From Phenylobacterium sp. (GTDB lineage: Bacteria > Pseudomonadota > Alphaproteobacteria > Caulobacterales > Caulobacteraceae): a stretch of 45,890 nucleotides of DNA. Shown piece after piece: positions 14,269 through 19,083 of this stretch. Positions within the stretch are counted from its first letter, which is position 1, and each line of letters opens with the position of its first letter. Under the pieces are notes generated by a model, which was given only the letters and a program-made list of their open reading frames with translations, was not told where the DNA came from and searched no databases. The stretch covers positions 1-45,890 of the forward strand of contig NZ_JAEUMO010000204.1 of NCBI RefSeq assembly GCF_016793285.1, in the 5' to 3' direction. A program made the translations under genes and the position numbers.

Positions 14269-14434
14269 CTAGTGTGCTGGATCTGAAGTTCGCCCGCTTC
14301 TGGGCCGGAGCGCCGAGCGAACTTCAGATCCAAAAAGCACACTAGAAACAAATATTTCTCTAGTGTCCTTATCGATTCCGAAGTTCGACCGAGTCCGCCT
14401 CACGCGCTTGCGAACTTCGGAATCGGGACACTAG
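14269..14434. repeat. 166-bp bipartite palindromic intergenic element, copy A
   Basis: Two palindromes, each bounded by CTAG at both ends, are joined by a 14-base AT-rich linker (14346-14359). The left palindrome (14269-14345, 77 bp) has arms running from CTAGTGTGC to CTGAAGTTCGC and back. The right one (14360-14434, 75 bp) runs from CTAGTGTCC to CCGAAGTTCG and back. Each has a 4-base asymmetry (AAAA, TTAT) on its linker side. The right palindrome holds three GANTC sites (14374, 14391, 14420). An almost identical copy in opposite orientation lies at 17425-17590. It fills most of the 355-base gap between the aldolase gene and the RND operon; no protein-coding gene is seen in that gap. Confidence 0.93.
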
Positions 14435-14453
14435 CGCGGGATCGCCGGCGGCT

Positions 14454-15224
14454 TCAGGCGTCGTAACCCGGCAGGGCGCGATCCAGCTTGCGCAGGCAGG
14501 CCGGCCACGCCAGCCCGCCACCGAAACCGCGGCCGGTCTGGGCCTTCACCTCGGTCTGCGAGGCCTCCGGGGCGATCAGCACCTTGTCGCGGCCGCCCGA
14601 CAGCGCCTGGATCTGCATGGTGCAGGCCCGCTCGAGGTAGAACATGCCGAGCCAGCAGTCCGCCGCCGTCTCGCCGGTCGAAAGCGTGCCGTGGTTGCGG
14701 AGCAGCATGAGCGGCTTGTCGCCGATGTCCGCCACGAGCCGTTCGCGCTCGTCGTGGTTCAGGGCGATGCCTTCGTAGTCGTGGTAGGCCAGCCGGGGGA
14801 TCACGATCAGCGCGTGCTGGCTGAGCGGCAGCAGGCCGTCCTTCTGCGCCGCCACGGCCACGCCCTGGTCGGTGTGCAGATGCATCACGTACTTGGCGTC
14901 CTCGCGCGCGGCGTGGACCGCCGAGTGGATCGTGAAGCCCGCCGGATTGATGAAGTACGGCGTCTCCTGGAGGATGTTGCCGTCCAGGTCGATCTTCACC
15001 AGCGACGAGGCGGTGATCTCCTCGAACAGCAGCCCGTAGGGGTTGATCAGGAAGTGGTGTTCGGGCCCCGGGATCCGCGCCGAGATGTGCGTGTAGATCA
15101 GGTCGTCCCATCCGTACAGCGCCACCAGGCGGTACAGCGCCGCCAGGTCCACGCGCGCTTGCCACTCTTCCGCGCTCACCTTGCCCTTCAGCGAGGTGAC
15201 GCCCGCGACCGAACCGTCCGCCAT
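14454..15224 (-). CDS. Class II aldolase/adducin family protein
   Basis: This encodes a 256-residue cytoplasmic protein with the class II aldolase/adducin fold. Probable zinc ligands are the two His of MHLHTDQGVAV and the His of LLRNHGTLSTG, arranged as in fuculose-phosphate aldolases. THISARIPGPEHHFLINPYGLLFEEITASSLVKIDL matches the group of alphaproteobacterial family members annotated as class II aldolase/adducin-like, whose substrate is unknown. ATG 15224 has GGAG-like sequence upstream and is followed by a normal N-terminus. It stands between the mnmH gene (same strand, 52 bases upstream) and repeat copy A (20 bases downstream). Co-transcription with mnmH is possible. Confidence 0.9.
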   Translation of the reverse strand: MADGSVAGVTSLKGKVSAEEWQARVDLAALYRLVALYGWDDLIYTHISARIPGPEHHFLINPYGLLFEEITASSLVKIDLDGNILQETPYFINPAGFTIHSAVHAAREDAKYVMHLHTDQGVAVAAQKDGLLPLSQHALIVIPRLAYHDYEGIALNHDERERLVADIGDKPLMLLRNHGTLSTGETAADCWLGMFYLERACTMQIQALSGGRDKVLIAPEASQTEVKAQTGRGFGGGLAWPACLRKLDRALPGYDA

Positions 15225-15276
15225 GGCGCTCTCCTTGTCGTCCTTCGCTCCAGCGTCCTCTCCCGCCGCGCGGGCG

Positions 15277-16332
15277 TCAAGCGCCGGCCAGGGCCGCCAC
15301 CGCGTCGGCGGCGGCCTCGAAGTCCGCCGGGTCGGTCGGATCGAGGCCGACCGCGCCCCTCAGCGGCCGGTCGTGCTTCTTGCGCGAGCGATCGTAGGCA
15401 GGGTCGTAGTGCAGCGCCATGATCGCCTGGGCGAGCCCCGCGAAGTCGCCCGCGTCGGCGAGCCCGCGCCACGTCGCCAGCCGTTCGCCGCTGACCCGCA
15501 CGGGCAGCCGCCCCAGCGCCGCGTCCAGCGCGACCCGGTCCTCGGCGATGTCGCTGTAGGCCCCGACGAGATAGCGCGCCCGCGCCGCCGGCTCGGCGAT
15601 CAGCTCGATGCGCGACGCGTGGGCCAGTTGCGACCAGAGCGCCGGCGGGACCATCCGCTCGCCGATCTTGCTGCTCTCGGCCTCGGCCACCACGGGCCGC
15701 GCGGGATCGAACCCGTCGAGCGCGGCCAGCAGCCGGCTCTCGAACAGCTTCTGGCTGGGCTGCGGCCGGCCGGCGAGCGCGCCGAACAGCGAGCCTCGGT
15801 GCGCCGCCAGTCCCTCGAGATCGAGCGTCTGCAACCCGCGCGCGGCGAGCTTGCCCAGCATCTCGGTCTTCCCCGATCCGGTGTGGCCGTCCAGCAGGAC
15901 GAACCTCAGGGAGAGCGCGCCGTCGTAGAGCCTGGCCGTCACATGCCGCCGATAGGTCCGATAGCCGCCGGACAGCACGGTCGTCGGCCAGCCCACCTGC
16001 GACAGGATCGTGGCCATGGCGTTCGAGCGCATGCCGCCCCGCCAGCAGTAGATCAGCGGCCGGAAGCCGCCCGGCTTGTCCCTGAGCACGGTCTCCAGGT
16101 GCCGGGCAATGTTGCGCGCCACGTGGGCCGCGCCGATCCGGCGCGCCCTGAAGCGGCTCTCTTGCACGTAGATCGCGCCCACTTCCGCGCGCTCGGCGTC
16201 GGACAGCACCGGAAGATTAACCGCTCCGGGCGCATGGTCCTCGGCGAACTCGCCCGGACTGCGCACGTCGATCAGCATGTCGAAGCGCGCCAGGGCTTCG
16301 GCCGAGACATCCTCTGTGAGCAGCAGGCTCAT
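15277..16332 (-). CDS. mnmH: tRNA 2-selenouridine synthase (MnmH/SelU)
   Basis: This enzyme replaces sulfur by selenium in 2-thiouridine at wobble position 34 of tRNA-Lys, Glu and Gln, passing through a geranylated intermediate. It has 351 residues, with an N-terminal rhodanese domain carrying the catalytic Cys96 in YCWRGGMRSNA. A P-loop domain follows with GHTGSGKT at 149-156 and the family block SSKIGERMVPPALW. It needs selenophosphate, made by the divergent selD 40 bases away, so the pair forms a complete short selenium route. The start ATG 16332 fits the family N-terminus (LLTEDVSAEALARFDMLIDVRSPGEF). Both promoters must overlap in the 40-base gap. Confidence 0.95.
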   Translation of the reverse strand: MSLLLTEDVSAEALARFDMLIDVRSPGEFAEDHAPGAVNLPVLSDAERAEVGAIYVQESRFRARRIGAAHVARNIARHLETVLRDKPGGFRPLIYCWRGGMRSNAMATILSQVGWPTTVLSGGYRTYRRHVTARLYDGALSLRFVLLDGHTGSGKTEMLGKLAARGLQTLDLEGLAAHRGSLFGALAGRPQPSQKLFESRLLAALDGFDPARPVVAEAESSKIGERMVPPALWSQLAHASRIELIAEPAARARYLVGAYSDIAEDRVALDAALGRLPVRVSGERLATWRGLADAGDFAGLAQAIMALHYDPAYDRSRKKHDRPLRGAVGLDPTDPADFEAAADAVAALAGA

Positions 16333-16372
16333 AGTGGTGCTATAGCCCGCTTCGCTCTGGGGGAGAGCCGGA

Positions 16373-17428
16373 ATGCCTGAGAAAGTACGCCTGACGTCCT
16401 TGGCCCACGGCGGCGGCTGCGGCTGCAAGATCGCGCCGGCGGTGTTGCGGGACATCATGAGCCGCATGCCTCAGGCCGCCGCCTTCCCGAATCTGCTGGT
16501 CGGGACCGAGACCTCGGACGACGCGGCCGTCTGGCGGCTGAACGACGAGCAGGCGCTGGTCGCCACCACCGACTTCTTCATGCCCGTCGTCGACGACCCG
16601 TTCGACTTCGGCCGCATCGCCGCCACCAACGCGCTGTCGGACGTCTACGCGATGGGCGGCCAGCCGATCCTCGCCCTCGCCGTCGTCGGCATGCCGGTCG
16701 GCAAGCTGTCGCCGGACACCATCGGCAGGATCCTCGCCGGCGGCGCGTCGGTCTGCGCCGCGGCCGGCGTGCCGGTGGCGGGCGGCCACACCATCGACAG
16801 CGCCGAGCCCATCTACGGCCTCGTCGCCCTCGGCCTGGTGCATCCCGGAAAGGTGCTGACCAACAGGGGCGGCCGCGAGGGCGACACGCTCATCCTCACC
16901 AAGGCGCTGGGCGTCGGCGTGCTGTCCGCCGCCTTCAAGCAGGACCGGCTCGAGCAGGGCGGCTACGACACGCTGATCTCCACGACGACCCAACTCAACG
17001 TGCTGGGCCGCGAACTCTCCGGCATGGCCGGCGTCCACGCCGTCACCGACGTCACGGGCTTCGGCCTCATCGGCCACGCGCTGGAGATGGCCCAGGGCGC
17101 TCAGTTGCTGGCCGACATCGAGGTGGGCGCCGTGCCCTTCCTGCCCGGCGTGGAGCGGCTGGTGCGCTCGGGCGTGCGCACCGGCGCCTCGACCCGCAAC
17201 TGGGAGAGCTACCAGGACCTCGTGCAGGAGCTCTCGCCCGTCCCGCACTGGAAACGCGACCTGCTCACCGACCCGCAGACCAGCGGCGGTCTGCTGATCG
17301 CCTGTGCGCCGGACGCCGCCGGGTCCGTGCTGGACGCCGCCCACGCCCGCGGCTTCGGCGCCGCCACCGCTATCGGCCGCCTGGCCGGCCGCTCCATGGG
17401 CATCCGGCCCCGGGTCCGCCTGCTCTAG
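16373..17428 (+). CDS. selD: Selenide, water dikinase (selenophosphate synthetase)
   Basis: This enzyme makes selenophosphate from selenide and ATP. It has 351 residues, with the N-terminal LAHGGGCGCKI containing the catalytic Cys16 and Lys19. It therefore uses Cys and not selenocysteine. The ATP-binding Asp residues lie in TSDDAAVWRLND and NALSDVYAMGG. GGHTIDSAEPIYGLVA and DVTGFGLIGHALEMA are family blocks. GGGAGAG precedes ATG 16373 at good spacing. The stop codon TAG (17426-17428) lies inside the terminal CTAG of repeat copy B, so the last residues RLL abut the element. Length is normal against the 347 residues of E. coli SelD. Confidence 0.97.
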   Translation: MPEKVRLTSLAHGGGCGCKIAPAVLRDIMSRMPQAAAFPNLLVGTETSDDAAVWRLNDEQALVATTDFFMPVVDDPFDFGRIAATNALSDVYAMGGQPILALAVVGMPVGKLSPDTIGRILAGGASVCAAAGVPVAGGHTIDSAEPIYGLVALGLVHPGKVLTNRGGREGDTLILTKALGVGVLSAAFKQDRLEQGGYDTLISTTTQLNVLGRELSGMAGVHAVTDVTGFGLIGHALEMAQGAQLLADIEVGAVPFLPGVERLVRSGVRTGASTRNWESYQDLVQELSPVPHWKRDLLTDPQTSGGLLIACAPDAAGSVLDAAHARGFGAATAIGRLAGRSMGIRPRVRLL

Positions 17429-17590
17429 TGTCCCGATTCCGAAGTTCGCAAGCGCGTGAGGCGGACTCGGTCGAACTTCGGAATCGATAAGGACACTAGA
17501 GAAATATTTGTTTCTAGTGTGCTTTCTGGATCTGAAGTTCGCTCGGCGCTCCGACCCGGAAGCAGGCGAACTTCAGATCCAGCACACTAG
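17425..17590. repeat. 166-bp bipartite palindromic intergenic element, copy B (inverted)
   Basis: Same element as 14269-14434 in opposite orientation, 166 bp with four mismatches when aligned by eye. The GANTC-bearing palindrome comes first (17425-17499), then the 14-base linker, then the CTGAAGTTC palindrome (17514-17590). It contains GANTC sites at 17435, 17464 and 17481. It fills the whole gap between the convergent selD and glpK genes. Its first CTAG gives the TAG stop of selD and its last CTAG gives the TAG stop of glpK on the other strand. Its transcript would fold strongly, so it may also terminate both genes. Confidence 0.93.
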
Positions 17591-19083
17591 CTGGTCCGGA
17601 CGCGGTTCACGGCGTCCAGCCAGCGGGCGTAGGCCCGTTCGCGCGGATCGGACGCCATCCTGGGCCGGTAGCCCTCGGTCCTGGGCCTTGCGCCGGCCGC
17701 CTCGGTCACGTCCCGGTAGACGCCCGCCCCCACGCCGGCGAACAGGGCCGCGCCCAGCGCGGTCGTCTCCTGGTACGTCGCCCGGCTCACGCCCACGCCG
17801 GTCAGGTCGGCCAGGCGCTGGCTGAACCACGCGCTCTTCGACATCCCGCCGTCGATACGCAGCTCCACGTCGCCCCGGAACGCCTGGGGCGCATCGGCCC
17901 GCATCGCCTCGATCAGGTCGCGGGTCTGCAGCGCGCAGGCGTCGAAGGCCGCCCGCGAGATCTCGGCCAGGCCGGCGTCGCGGGTCAGCCCGAACAGCCC
18001 GCCCCGCGCATTGGCGTCCCACCACGGCGCGCCGAGCCCCGTGAACGCCGGAACCAGCACCACGCCCAGATCCTCGTTCGCCCTGGCCGCCAGCGCCTCG
18101 GCCGCCTGCGGCCCGCCCTGTACGCCGAGCCCCTCGCCCAGCCACTGGATCGCGGCGCCGGCGATGAAGATCGCGCCCTCCAGCGCATAGGTGGTCCGCC
18201 CCCCCACCTGCGCCGCCACCGTCGTCAGCAGCCGCGCCTGGCTCACCGGCGCGGCCTCGCCGGTGTTCAGCAGCATGAAGCAACCGGTCCCGTAGGTGGC
18301 CTTCATCTCGCCGGGGTTGATGCAGCCCTGCCCCATCAGCGCCGCCTGCTGGTCGCCCGCCACGCCGCGGATCGGGATCGCGCGGCCCAGCAACCCCGCG
18401 TCCGTCTCGCCGAAGTCGCCGGCGCAGTCGCGCACGTCGGGAAGCATCCGCAGCGGAACCTCCAGCATCTCGGCCATCTCGGCCGACCAGGCATGGGCGC
18501 GGATGTCGTAGAGCAGCGTCCGCGAGGCGTTCGTCGCGTCGGTCGCGTGGACCTGGCCGCCGGTCAGCTTCCAGATCGACCAGGTGTCGATGGTGCCGGC
18601 CAGCAGTTCGCCGGCCTCCGCCGCCTTGCGCGCGCCCGGCGTGTGGTCCAGCAGCCAGGCCAGCTTGGTCCCGGAGAAGTAGGGGTCCAGCAGCAGGCCG
18701 GTGATCTCGGTCGCGCGCCTCTCGCGCCCGGCCTCGCGCAGCCTCGCGCAGACGGGCTCGGTCCGCCGGTCCTGCCAGACGATGGCCTTGTGGATGGGTC
18801 TGCCGGTGGCCTTCTCCCAGACCACGACCGTCTCGCGCTGATTGGTGATGCCGATGGCCGCCACGTCGCCCATCGCGCGGCCGGCCTTCTGCACGGCCTC
18901 CTTCAGCACGGCCAACGACGCCGCGAAGATCTCATCGGCGTCGTGTTCGACCCATCCGTCGTGCGGATAGTGCTGCTCCAGCGGCCGGCCGGCCTCGCCC
19001 AGCGCCGTGCCGTCGGCGCCGAACAGGATCGCCCGCGTCGAGGTCGTGCCCTGGTCCAGCGCCAGGATCAGCGGCTCGGCCAT
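17587..19083 (-). CDS. glpK: Glycerol kinase
   Basis: This is an FGGY-family kinase that phosphorylates glycerol to glycerol 3-phosphate in the cytoplasm. It has 498 residues against 502 in E. coli. N-terminal ATP motif is ALDQGTTSTRAILF. Also seen are NQRETVVVWEKATGRPIHKAIVWQDRR (substrate loop), TYGTGCFMLLNTG, and the C-terminal RIDGGMSKSAWFSQRLADLTG. All are standard for GlpK. ATG 19083 has GGGAGG eight bases upstream. No glpF, glpD or glpR adjoins, so uptake and regulation are encoded elsewhere. The stop codon TAG is supplied by the edge of repeat copy B. Confidence 0.97.
   Translation of the reverse strand: MAEPLILALDQGTTSTRAILFGADGTALGEAGRPLEQHYPHDGWVEHDADEIFAASLAVLKEAVQKAGRAMGDVAAIGITNQRETVVVWEKATGRPIHKAIVWQDRRTEPVCARLREAGRERRATEITGLLLDPYFSGTKLAWLLDHTPGARKAAEAGELLAGTIDTWSIWKLTGGQVHATDATNASRTLLYDIRAHAWSAEMAEMLEVPLRMLPDVRDCAGDFGETDAGLLGRAIPIRGVAGDQQAALMGQGCINPGEMKATYGTGCFMLLNTGEAAPVSQARLLTTVAAQVGGRTTYALEGAIFIAGAAIQWLGEGLGVQGGPQAAEALAARANEDLGVVLVPAFTGLGAPWWDANARGGLFGLTRDAGLAEISRAAFDACALQTRDLIEAMRADAPQAFRGDVELRIDGGMSKSAWFSQRLADLTGVGVSRATYQETTALGAALFAGVGAGVYRDVTEAAGARPRTEGYRPRMASDPRERAYARWLDAVNRVRTS

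Follow-up and report, generated by a model that had tools for sequence, protein, structure and literature searches.

What are two near-identical inverted repeats doing on either side of an aldolase and selenium gene block? The window analysed here is a 45,890-nt stretch of a Phenylobacterium sp. contig (NZ_JAEUMO010000204.1), in which the two copies, each of 166 bp, bracket about 3 kb of coding DNA. From the letters alone, the first-pass annotation had proposed a non-autonomous mobile element that inserted twice, the ends of a segment that recombination could invert, or a genome-wide repeat family that happens to lie on both sides.

Structure of the repeat and its copies in the window

Direct comparison confirmed that all 166 bases of the two copies align in opposite orientation with exactly 4 mismatches. 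The repeat search scored the pair as 172 nt with 97% complementarity, the 6 extra nucleotides lying outside the CTAG edges. Searched against their own genome, the window copies gave E-values of 3.7e-82 and 9.6e-77, and the match between them is far above chance. The internal build described before was also recovered from sequence and fold: each copy consists of a 77-bp palindromic arm (the G-arm), a 14-bp linker and a 75-bp palindromic arm (the C-arm), with CTAG at all four feet (Table 1). Folding of copy 1 gives a pair of hairpins, both bulged by 4 nt on the inner side (RNA: -93.6 kcal/mol, z -12.8; DNA: z -11.0).

Pfam matches identify the enclosed genes as a class II aldolase/adducin family gene, a rhodanese-domain gene fitting mnmH and a selD-like gene, in line with the earlier naming of an aldolase-family gene, mnmH and selD, and no transposase was found among the three. 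The called selD-like frame overlaps the divergent gene, so its true start may be located downstream. Copy 2 entered a CTAG in which the stop codons of selD and of an FGGY-family carbohydrate kinase gene overlap.

Table 1. Features of the two window copies and neighbouring genes (positions in the window)
Feature	Position	Strand	Basis or remark
Copy 1, full composite, GTGTGC arm first	14269..14434	+	G031 orthologous site CCGCCTAGCCCG, element-free
Copy 1 G-arm, 77-bp palindrome, CTAG at both feet, inner 4-nt bulge AAAA	14269..14345	+	fold
Copy 1 linker, AT-rich, 14 bp	14346..14359	+	sequence
Copy 1 C-arm, 75-bp palindrome, CTAG at both feet, inner 4-nt bulge TTAT	14360..14434	+	fold
Copy 1 C-arm GANTC	14374, 14420 (two stem halves), 14391 (apical part)	+	
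Copy 2, full, 4 mismatches to copy 1	17425..17590	-	G031 empty site CTGCTCTAGGTC
Copy 2 C-arm, 75 bp	17425..17499	-	
Copy 2 linker, AT-rich, 14 bp	17500..17513	-	
Copy 2 G-arm, 77 bp	17514..17590	-	
selD TAG stop codon, in left CTAG of copy 2	17426..17428	+	
FGGY kinase gene TAG stop codon, in right CTAG of copy 2	17587..17589	-	
Class II aldolase/adducin family gene, neighbour, outside element	14454..15224	-	Pfam PF00596
Rhodanese-domain gene, neighbour; fits mnmH (name from sequence-only reading)	15277..16467	-	Pfam PF00581
selD-like gene, neighbour	16373..17428	+	Pfam PF00586, PF02769
FGGY-family carbohydrate kinase gene, neighbour	17587..19083	-	Pfam PF00370, PF02782

Copies, empty sites and the CTAG target

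The genome contains at least 16 full copies (166-167 bp, 93-100% identity) and 8 partial places, a lower bound obtained from the 40 scored among 48 first-look candidates. All 16 full copies carry CTAG on both sides and their flanks are unrelated, in agreement with the sharp edges noted earlier. In seven relatives fetched for the aldolase-mnmH-selD block, six were readable across both sites (G075 was not), and these six hold the block in the same orientation with neither copy present. In the closest relative, the sister species G031, each of the two window sites is a single CTAG. Because relatives have the block without the copies and the G031 sites are single CTAGs, each window copy represents a separate insertion at CTAG. 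Two further contigs hold two full copies each, one pair inverted and the other direct; since copy pairs occur there too, the pair around the gene block is not special. With multiple copies and empty sites in relatives, the first and the third of the proposed readings, the mobile element and the genome-wide repeat, both stand and are the same thing.

A clean element-free G031 alignment across both flanks was available for 5 of the 16 copies, and the empty site reads CTAG in three cases, CTAA in one and TTAG in one. A single CTAG when empty and a CTAG on either side when occupied were thus seen at three of the five clean sites; as CTAG is palindromic, duplication of a 2-bp TA and of a 4-bp CTAG look the same. 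G031 gave no element match among the first-look candidates scored (14, then 3, of 19), and no exact end motif was found there in the genus scan. Across the genus, 13 of 101 genomes carry the element. The composite was also found in several alphaproteobacterial orders (at least 119 stretches, 80 of them listed as loci L083-L162, so that the spread is a lower bound), and the aligned copies of relatives are about 162-171 bp long. Eight plasmid records from Roseibium and Labrenzia gave weak matches (44-72% query cover, 73-77% identity).

CTAG is about tenfold rarer than expected, and a substantial fraction of its sites serve as gene stop codons. Of the 16 copies, 11 provide a called gene with its stop codon, in all 11 cases a Pfam-matched gene, and three do so on both sides. 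Against 102 background CTAG sites, counted with element copies masked, the stop-codon excess is weak (11/16 versus 43/102, p 0.06); double stops were found at 3/16 versus 2/102 (p 0.018), and positions inside genes at 0/16 versus 17/102 (p 0.12). Insertion would often be harmless because CTAG is rare and often a stop codon, which the CTAG edges of the element restore. A tRNA-disruption test of one copy (L009) revealed no extra tRNA or tmRNA in either the locus or the joined empty site.

Transposon ends and alternative readings

The unit is short, non-coding, dispersed and multi-copy and shows insertion polymorphism with empty sites, as a miniature inverted-repeat transposable element (MITE) does. 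We consider it likely that it is such a non-autonomous element of the IS630/Tc1-mariner type, and its mover is probably a transposase encoded elsewhere. An IS630-type element in G031 (L202), with an open 374-aa DDE_3 frame, matches the element end motif at 22 of 23 positions at both ends, while no other site of the locus scores above 16. Three further loci (L208, L221 and L237) match at 21-23 of 23 positions at one end each. The arms of the element have two end types, GTGTCC and GTGTGC, and both occur in an IS630-type element of Roseomonas (L130), which resembles the two arms in ending with GTGTCCCG on one side and with GTGTGCTG on the other. The G031 and Roseomonas ends share the spacing of the element and are near-identical, not identical, in sequence. 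An end score of at least 19/23 was reached by only 9 of 28 transposase loci, and four of the nine belong to a single element repeated within one genome.

The draft assembly of the genome itself, whose 271 contigs may lack a multi-copy IS, yielded no IS630 transposase with matching ends. IS630-type transposases occur in 7 of the 101 genomes of the genus and overlap with element carriers only in G104, where the transposase is 31% identical and matching ends are absent. Among eight element-carrying genomes searched for DDE_3, two had matches (G104 and G105) and none had matching ends; no copy like those of the window was present in the Roseomonas genome that harbours the matching IS.

Since each arm is palindromic, every element has four end-like sequences. 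By alignment, the inner end is longer than the outer one in 86/86 first arms (+2 to +5) and in 85/86 second arms (+1 to +5), the remaining one being equal. This count kept 86 of 107 candidates (16/16 from the genome itself, 15/17 from relatives and 55/74 from the wider scan) and dropped 21 whose second arm was not found or whose self-alignment score was low; insert lengths are accurate to +/-1, the own copies giving 4 and 5 by count versus 4 and 4 by fold. With 1-5 bases added at the inner pair of ends in almost every composite measured, it may be the outer pair alone that works.

The outer ends of the window copy differ from each other at 5 of 24 bases. In a covariation alignment of 59 rows, drawn from the 60 to which the 86 had been thinned (L119 dropped, L043 reversed by hand), the symmetry of the arms is maintained through two-sided changes; G.T accounts for 28 and A.C for 32 of 2805 cells. 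Two-sided changes with no G.T excess indicate that arm symmetry is kept at the DNA level. Within-arm identity averages 0.91 with a minimum of 0.21, values distorted by a few mis-set arms. Covariation was found family-wide between the two halves, inner and outer, of a single arm and not between the two outer ends, a pattern for which a plain IS630 MITE has no need. Of the 59 aligned inner halves of the C-arm, 58 contain GANTC; the constant site is that of the C-arm stem, and 17 of the 59 rows, the window copies among them, have another in the apical part.

Three other readings were weighed against the IS630-type MITE. An invertible 3-kb cassette with the copies as its recombining ends, as the first-pass annotation had also proposed, we regard as highly improbable. 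Near-identical inverted copies could occasionally recombine by general recombination, but the single orientation of the copy-free block in six of the seven fetched relatives removed the cassette as a leading idea, the three block genes are not recombinases, and the other same-contig pairs are not consistently inverted. A conserved regulatory or structural repeat (a carrier of CcrM sites, a bidirectional terminator or an sRNA), selected in place with movement secondary, would fit the near-constant C-arm GANTC, the position of copies at gene 3' ends and the strong hairpins. It is nevertheless improbable: copies are not fixed, both window copies being absent from G031; RNA-type G.U tolerance is absent; no Rfam family scored above its gathering score; and the terminator scan returned one site, inside copy 1, the same as the shuffle mean of 1.0. 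Sub-threshold Rfam matches (four miRNA families inside the copies and one cis-regulatory family between them) were taken as chance.

BIMEs are pairs of inverted hairpins, and the element resembles them and REP units in its two inverted imperfect hairpins, which are bulged and stand on a tetranucleotide foot. A Y1 (HUH) transposase would then recognise the bulged hairpins as single-stranded DNA and cut beside CTAG, and the doubled CTAG would reflect use of the cleavage site with no target duplication; the two-sided arm changes without G.T excess, which place the symmetry at the DNA level, speak for this. We consider this origin unlikely, as Y1_Tnp was detected in only two of nine genomes (one gene in the genome itself, two in G105) and not in the six other carriers tested (G026, G083, G104, G064, G014 and G122). 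The three Y1 loci had no matching end in their 1.5-kb flanks (best 18/23), whereas ends with the sequence and spacing of the element belong to IS630-type elements. A REP/BIME system with a RAYT was not supported, no link to a Y1 transposase, and none flanked by the repeat, having been found in the nine genomes.

Proposed mechanism and comparison with known systems

For the IS630-type MITE, we hypothesize that the element is a pair of palindromic IS-end units set back to back, so that the end is present four times. The outer two would be acted on in trans by an IS630 transposase whose ends read CTAGTGTCC-7 nt-GAAGTTCGC, and the TA centre of CTAG would be duplicated on insertion, which leaves a CTAG on either side of the inserted element. 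At the inner ends, additional bases separate the CTAGTGTCC tip from the GAAGTTCG block and may serve as a spacing lock against cutting, and with the inner ends uncut the composite would move in one piece. Its CTAG edges would renew a stop codon, even for two convergent genes together, and the pair around the aldolase-mnmH-selD block would represent two such insertions. A wider proposal, which we put forward only tentatively and think rather doubtful as a whole, is a pan-alphaproteobacterial element of 166 bp with four transposon ends and a built-in lock (inner ends disabled by spacing, outer ends active), its arm symmetry renewed at the DNA level by template-switch correction or hairpin recognition, GANTC methylation sites constant in a single arm that might couple transposition with the cell cycle, and a CTAG target, frequently a stop codon in GC-rich genomes, allowing harmless entry between convergent genes; the Caulobacter CIR repeats would be of the same kind.

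If right, the IS630 assignment would explain how a class of two-armed repeats in alphaproteobacteria moves and would name a candidate transposase for it. Two testable ideas follow: that end spacing selects which of several transposon ends serve, and that CTAG target choice leads the element to stop codons. For the reading of genomes, inverted pairs of the element flanking a gene block need not be the ends of a cassette.

Among known repeats, the GTAG- or CGTC-tagged REP repeats are described in PMC3733652 as palindromic, tagged at one end by four nucleotides, and as present in Bradyrhizobium too; their units measure 20-40 bp, whereas the arms of the element measure 75-77 bp and have CTAG at both feet. 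Bru-RS1 and Bru-RS2 of Brucella, palindromic repeats of 103-105 bp (as outlined in PMC2267715), may be insertion hot spots for IS711, which has a YTAR target and duplicates TA (according to the account in PMC2266754). By description they are similar in being palindromic, alphaproteobacterial and associated with a TA-duplicating IS, and these accounts describe IS711 as a possible inserter and not as the mover. RUP of Streptococcus pneumoniae, a 107-bp proposed MITE of IS630-Spn1, is likewise portrayed in the sections on it in PMC2229807 and PMC3049150 as non-autonomous, with IS630-like ends and a TA target, and as overrepresented between convergent genes; its terminal repeats pair with each other, whereas the present element has two self-paired arms. 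Inner ends of altered spacing and the CTAG target go beyond RUP.

The element also resembles the Caulobacter CcrM-associated intergenic repeats (CIR), judged by description rather than by sequence. The treatment of CIR in PMC2229807 gives about 110 bp, no terminal inverted repeat and GANTC at or partly in the terminal loop, and section 7 of that review (Delihas 2007) calls for more information on the mobility of CIR-type repeats. Both are alphaproteobacterial, carry GANTC, consist of two inverted-repeat arms with a linker, have TA termini and lie outside genes, with the mobility mechanism open in that account. The present element differs from CIR as described there in its 166-bp length, CTAG at four feet and IS630-like ends, and perhaps in the placement of GANTC, which lies mainly in the C-arm stem and near an apex in 17 of 59 rows. 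Under the tentative wider proposal above, the CIR repeats would belong to one kind with the present element, and their nature would have an explanation two decades on.

Copy number and spread of the repeat

The two window copies form the inverted 166-bp pair described in the first-pass annotation, with four mismatches between them. Its bipartite reading also stands: each copy is a 77-bp palindrome (G-arm), a 14-bp linker and a 75-bp palindrome (C-arm), with CTAG at all four feet. As a single strand, copy 1 folds into two hairpins, both carrying a 4-nt bulge that faces the linker (fold z of -12.8 as RNA and -11.0 as DNA). A genome-wide repeat family, one of the readings offered for the pair, is what we found: the host genome (4.49 Mb, 271 contigs) holds at least 16 full-length copies with 93-100% identity, a lower bound with 40 of 48 candidates scored, and 8 partial places. 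By contig strand, nine of the full copies are plus and seven minus; three contigs carry two each (see table), and all 16 have CTAG on both sides and unrelated flanks.

The exact end motif, CTAGTGT(G/C)C-7 nt-GAAGTTCG, is present in 13 of the 101 genomes of the genus (reversed control, 0 among the matches listed). At the family level, with at most three candidates scored per genome, the element was matched (E 0.001) in 27 of 249 genomes and 9 of 22 genera. Named genomes, when scanned, gave at least 119 stretches with the end motif, and among the 80 matches listed are Caulobacter, Phenylobacterium, Bradyrhizobium, Afipia, Nitrobacter, Hyphomicrobium, Magnetospira, Roseomonas, Acidisphaera and Limobrevibacterium. 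The two-arm filter was passed by 55 of the 74 listed stretches long enough to test, and these represent the same composite, about 165 bp long; those failing as a full composite were truncated, hybrid, solo or too degenerate. Hits in G026 and in the Phenylobacterium sp. RYN_472 genome fall at identical coordinates, which would place the window in the genus Phenylobacterium.

Short hybrids, in which the outer ends of the two arms are joined to each other, were seen at loci L021, L022, L023/L025 (host genome), L095 and L150, the pattern expected from deletion between the arms. The single near-perfect palindromes L094 and L110 (Acetobacterales), about 57-58 bp, CTAG-bounded and with neither bulge nor second arm, look like minimal one-arm versions. 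One host copy was apparently split in two by a different element, presumably of the IS630 type, inserted in the internal CTAG with duplication of TA; this IS (N-terminus MVRAYSSDLRDRVV, C-terminus CANYLTNSGYASV) is broken at both contig ends.

Positions and properties of individual features
Feature	Locus or contig	Position	Observation
Two full copies	window	14269-14434 (+), 17425-17590 (-)	inverted, 3 kb apart
Two full copies	C245		inverted, about 13 kb apart
Two full copies	C237		direct, about 6 kb apart
Apical GANTC of window's copies	window	14391
selD (+) and divergent mnmH-like (-) ORFs as listed	window	16373-16467	95-bp overlap
tRNA-like 3' end adjoining an element copy	L009	around 1504-1710	GGTTCGAGCCCGACC...GCCA
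Single palindrome	L094	4955-5011
Single palindrome	L110
Part of apparently split copy	L017, contig C153	1-140
Part of apparently split copy	L019, contig C74	1579-1712
Transposase locus, one end	L208		23/23 to end motif
Transposase locus, one end	L221		22/23 to end motif
Transposase locus, one end	L237		21/23 to end motif
Transposase locus, one end	L207		20/23 to end motif

Empty sites and placement at gene ends

Empty sites, which the first-pass annotation had proposed looking for in relatives, were found for both window copies in G031, which of the relatives found is the closest (about 90% identity over this region). At the copy 2 site, a single CTAG common to both joins the selD part to the kinase part, with no element; the intergenic copy 1 (left) site reads CCGCCTAGCCCG, likewise a single CTAG without the element, and G031 has there some 16 nt missing from the window. 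The alternative that the pair bounds an invertible 3-kb segment is not borne out: six relatives (G031, G012, G081, G008, G011 and G069) have the whole block in one and the same orientation with both copies absent. In a further relative, G075, the contig ends and the block is not readable across. On contig C6 of G075, about 4.7 kb of additional DNA separates selD from the FGGY kinase gene at the orthologous convergent gene end.

Predicted empty sites of the other 14 host copies were searched in three relatives, and alignments were run for 11 of them. G031 is contiguous across L005, L014 and L015, reading CTAG, CTAA and TTAG, respectively; it aligns across L002 and L010 without the element but with gaps (the L010 site reads CTAC), and at L006 and L008 its alignment runs up to and through CTAG on one side, with G075 aligning across L006 with a 15-nt gap. 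Among the three relatives, L007, L011 and L012 gave no usable cross-site alignment, and L004, L009 and L016 no match spanning both flanks. Clean empty sites were thus obtained for 5 of the 16 host copies, both window sites included; because CTAG is its own complement, duplications of TA (2 bp) and CTAG (4 bp) are indistinguishable. In the G031 orthologue of the L013 site (L281), a TAG at the same gene end is immediately followed by another, different hairpin repeat, GGGACACACACCATT...AATGGTGTGTGTCCC.

Eleven of the 16 host copies lie at a stop codon, all with a Pfam-matched adjoining gene, five lie between genes and none inside a called gene. Three of the eleven serve two stops at once (selD/kinase, sugar transferase/MAPEG and dehydrogenase/Sel1). 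Outside the copies, 366 kb of the host genome contain 102 CTAG sites versus about 985 predicted from base composition; with genes called by a simple caller (GC of codon position), 43 are a stop codon (2 of them for two genes at once), 17 are inside genes and 42 between genes. Relative to this background, the excess of copies at stop codons is weak (p 0.06), that at double stops modest (p 0.018), and the absence inside genes not significant (p 0.12). Most of the gene-end effect is therefore due to CTAG itself marking gene ends, to which purging of harmful insertions may add. Pneumococcal RUP is likewise described in PMC3049150 as overrepresented between convergent genes.

The tRNA-like 3' end at L009 may be a leftover at the edge of a genomic island; ARAGORN calls no gene there with the element present or removed. 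Of the overlapping selD and mnmH-like ORFs, one has probably been given a start that lies too far upstream.

Arm symmetry and the two kinds of ends

We compared 59 aligned composites, which are related and 44 of which were found by a pattern fixing the outer C-arm end, so that the independent part is the G-arm plus the inner ends. Within-arm pairs are standard in 89.9% versus 81.1% when shuffled, both sides have changed at 33 of 59 pairs, and one G-arm pair occurs as all four Watson-Crick types (24, 19, 8 and 7). The within-arm covariation score is 0.252, versus 0.099 for shuffled and at most 0.061 for slid versions; pairing of outer with outer ends showed no covariation above shuffles (0.076 versus 0.081). 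As G.T (28) and A.C (32) among 2805 core cells indicate no extra G.U tolerance, we take the symmetry to be maintained at the DNA level rather than as RNA structure. Template switching, reported in PMC8794818 to create and maintain hairpins, might be expected to erase the bulge as well, yet the bulge persists.

In the C-arm stem, GANTC occurs in 58 of 59 inner halves and in 56 of 59 outer halves, the outer count owing in part to the search pattern; in the G-arm stem, 3 and 4 of 59 halves have it. Of the 59 composites, 17 have an apical GANTC, which lies in the G-arm in 15 and in the C-arm in 3; the window's copies are among the 17. The two IS elements read at both ends have GANTC at one end and lack it at the other. 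The sites may tie the element to CcrM methylation.

Spacing was measured in the 86 of 107 candidate composites that passed the arm filter. The inner end exceeds the outer by 2-5 nt in 86/86 first arms and by 1-5 nt in 85/86 second arms (equal in one), lengths possibly off by one (4 and 5 in the host copies versus 4 and 4 in the fold of copy 1). The extra bases separate the CTAGTGTCC tip from the GAAGTTCG block, alike in host copies, relatives and other orders. The IS elements (the G031 type and L130, a Roseomonas element) show the outer-end spacing. If inner ends are unusable, as we suppose, the composite would move as one unit.

Candidate transposase and known relatives

The IS630-type element of G031 has an open 374-aa frame with DDE_3 and HTH domains and both its ends match the end motif at 22/23, where the best other site reaches 16. 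L130, about 1.2 kb with its transposase in two overlapping frames, carries GTGTCCCG at one end and GTGTGCTG at the other, the pair of end types also seen in the two arms of the 166-bp unit. Nine of 28 transposase loci scored 19 or more; four of the nine are copies of a single element. No reversed control exceeded 17; remoter transposases have mostly CTAG-bounded ends with lower scores (14-18). A search of the host assembly (271 contigs) gave no IS630 transposase of matching type. Across the genus, 7 of 101 genomes carry the transposase and 13 of 101 the element, overlapping in only one genome, where the transposase is remote and without these ends; the Roseomonas genome of L130 gave no match to the window's element. 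The shared ends point to likely mobilisation of the element in trans by an IS630-type transposase.

We found no description of the element in the open-licence PMC literature; one may exist in print elsewhere. Caulobacter intergenic repeats (CIR), whose mobility needs more information according to Delihas 2007 (PMC2229807), differ from it in size and agree only in part in the place of GANTC, a comparison by description rather than by sequence. As described there, they have the same two-arm plan, linker, GANTC and TA termini as the element.
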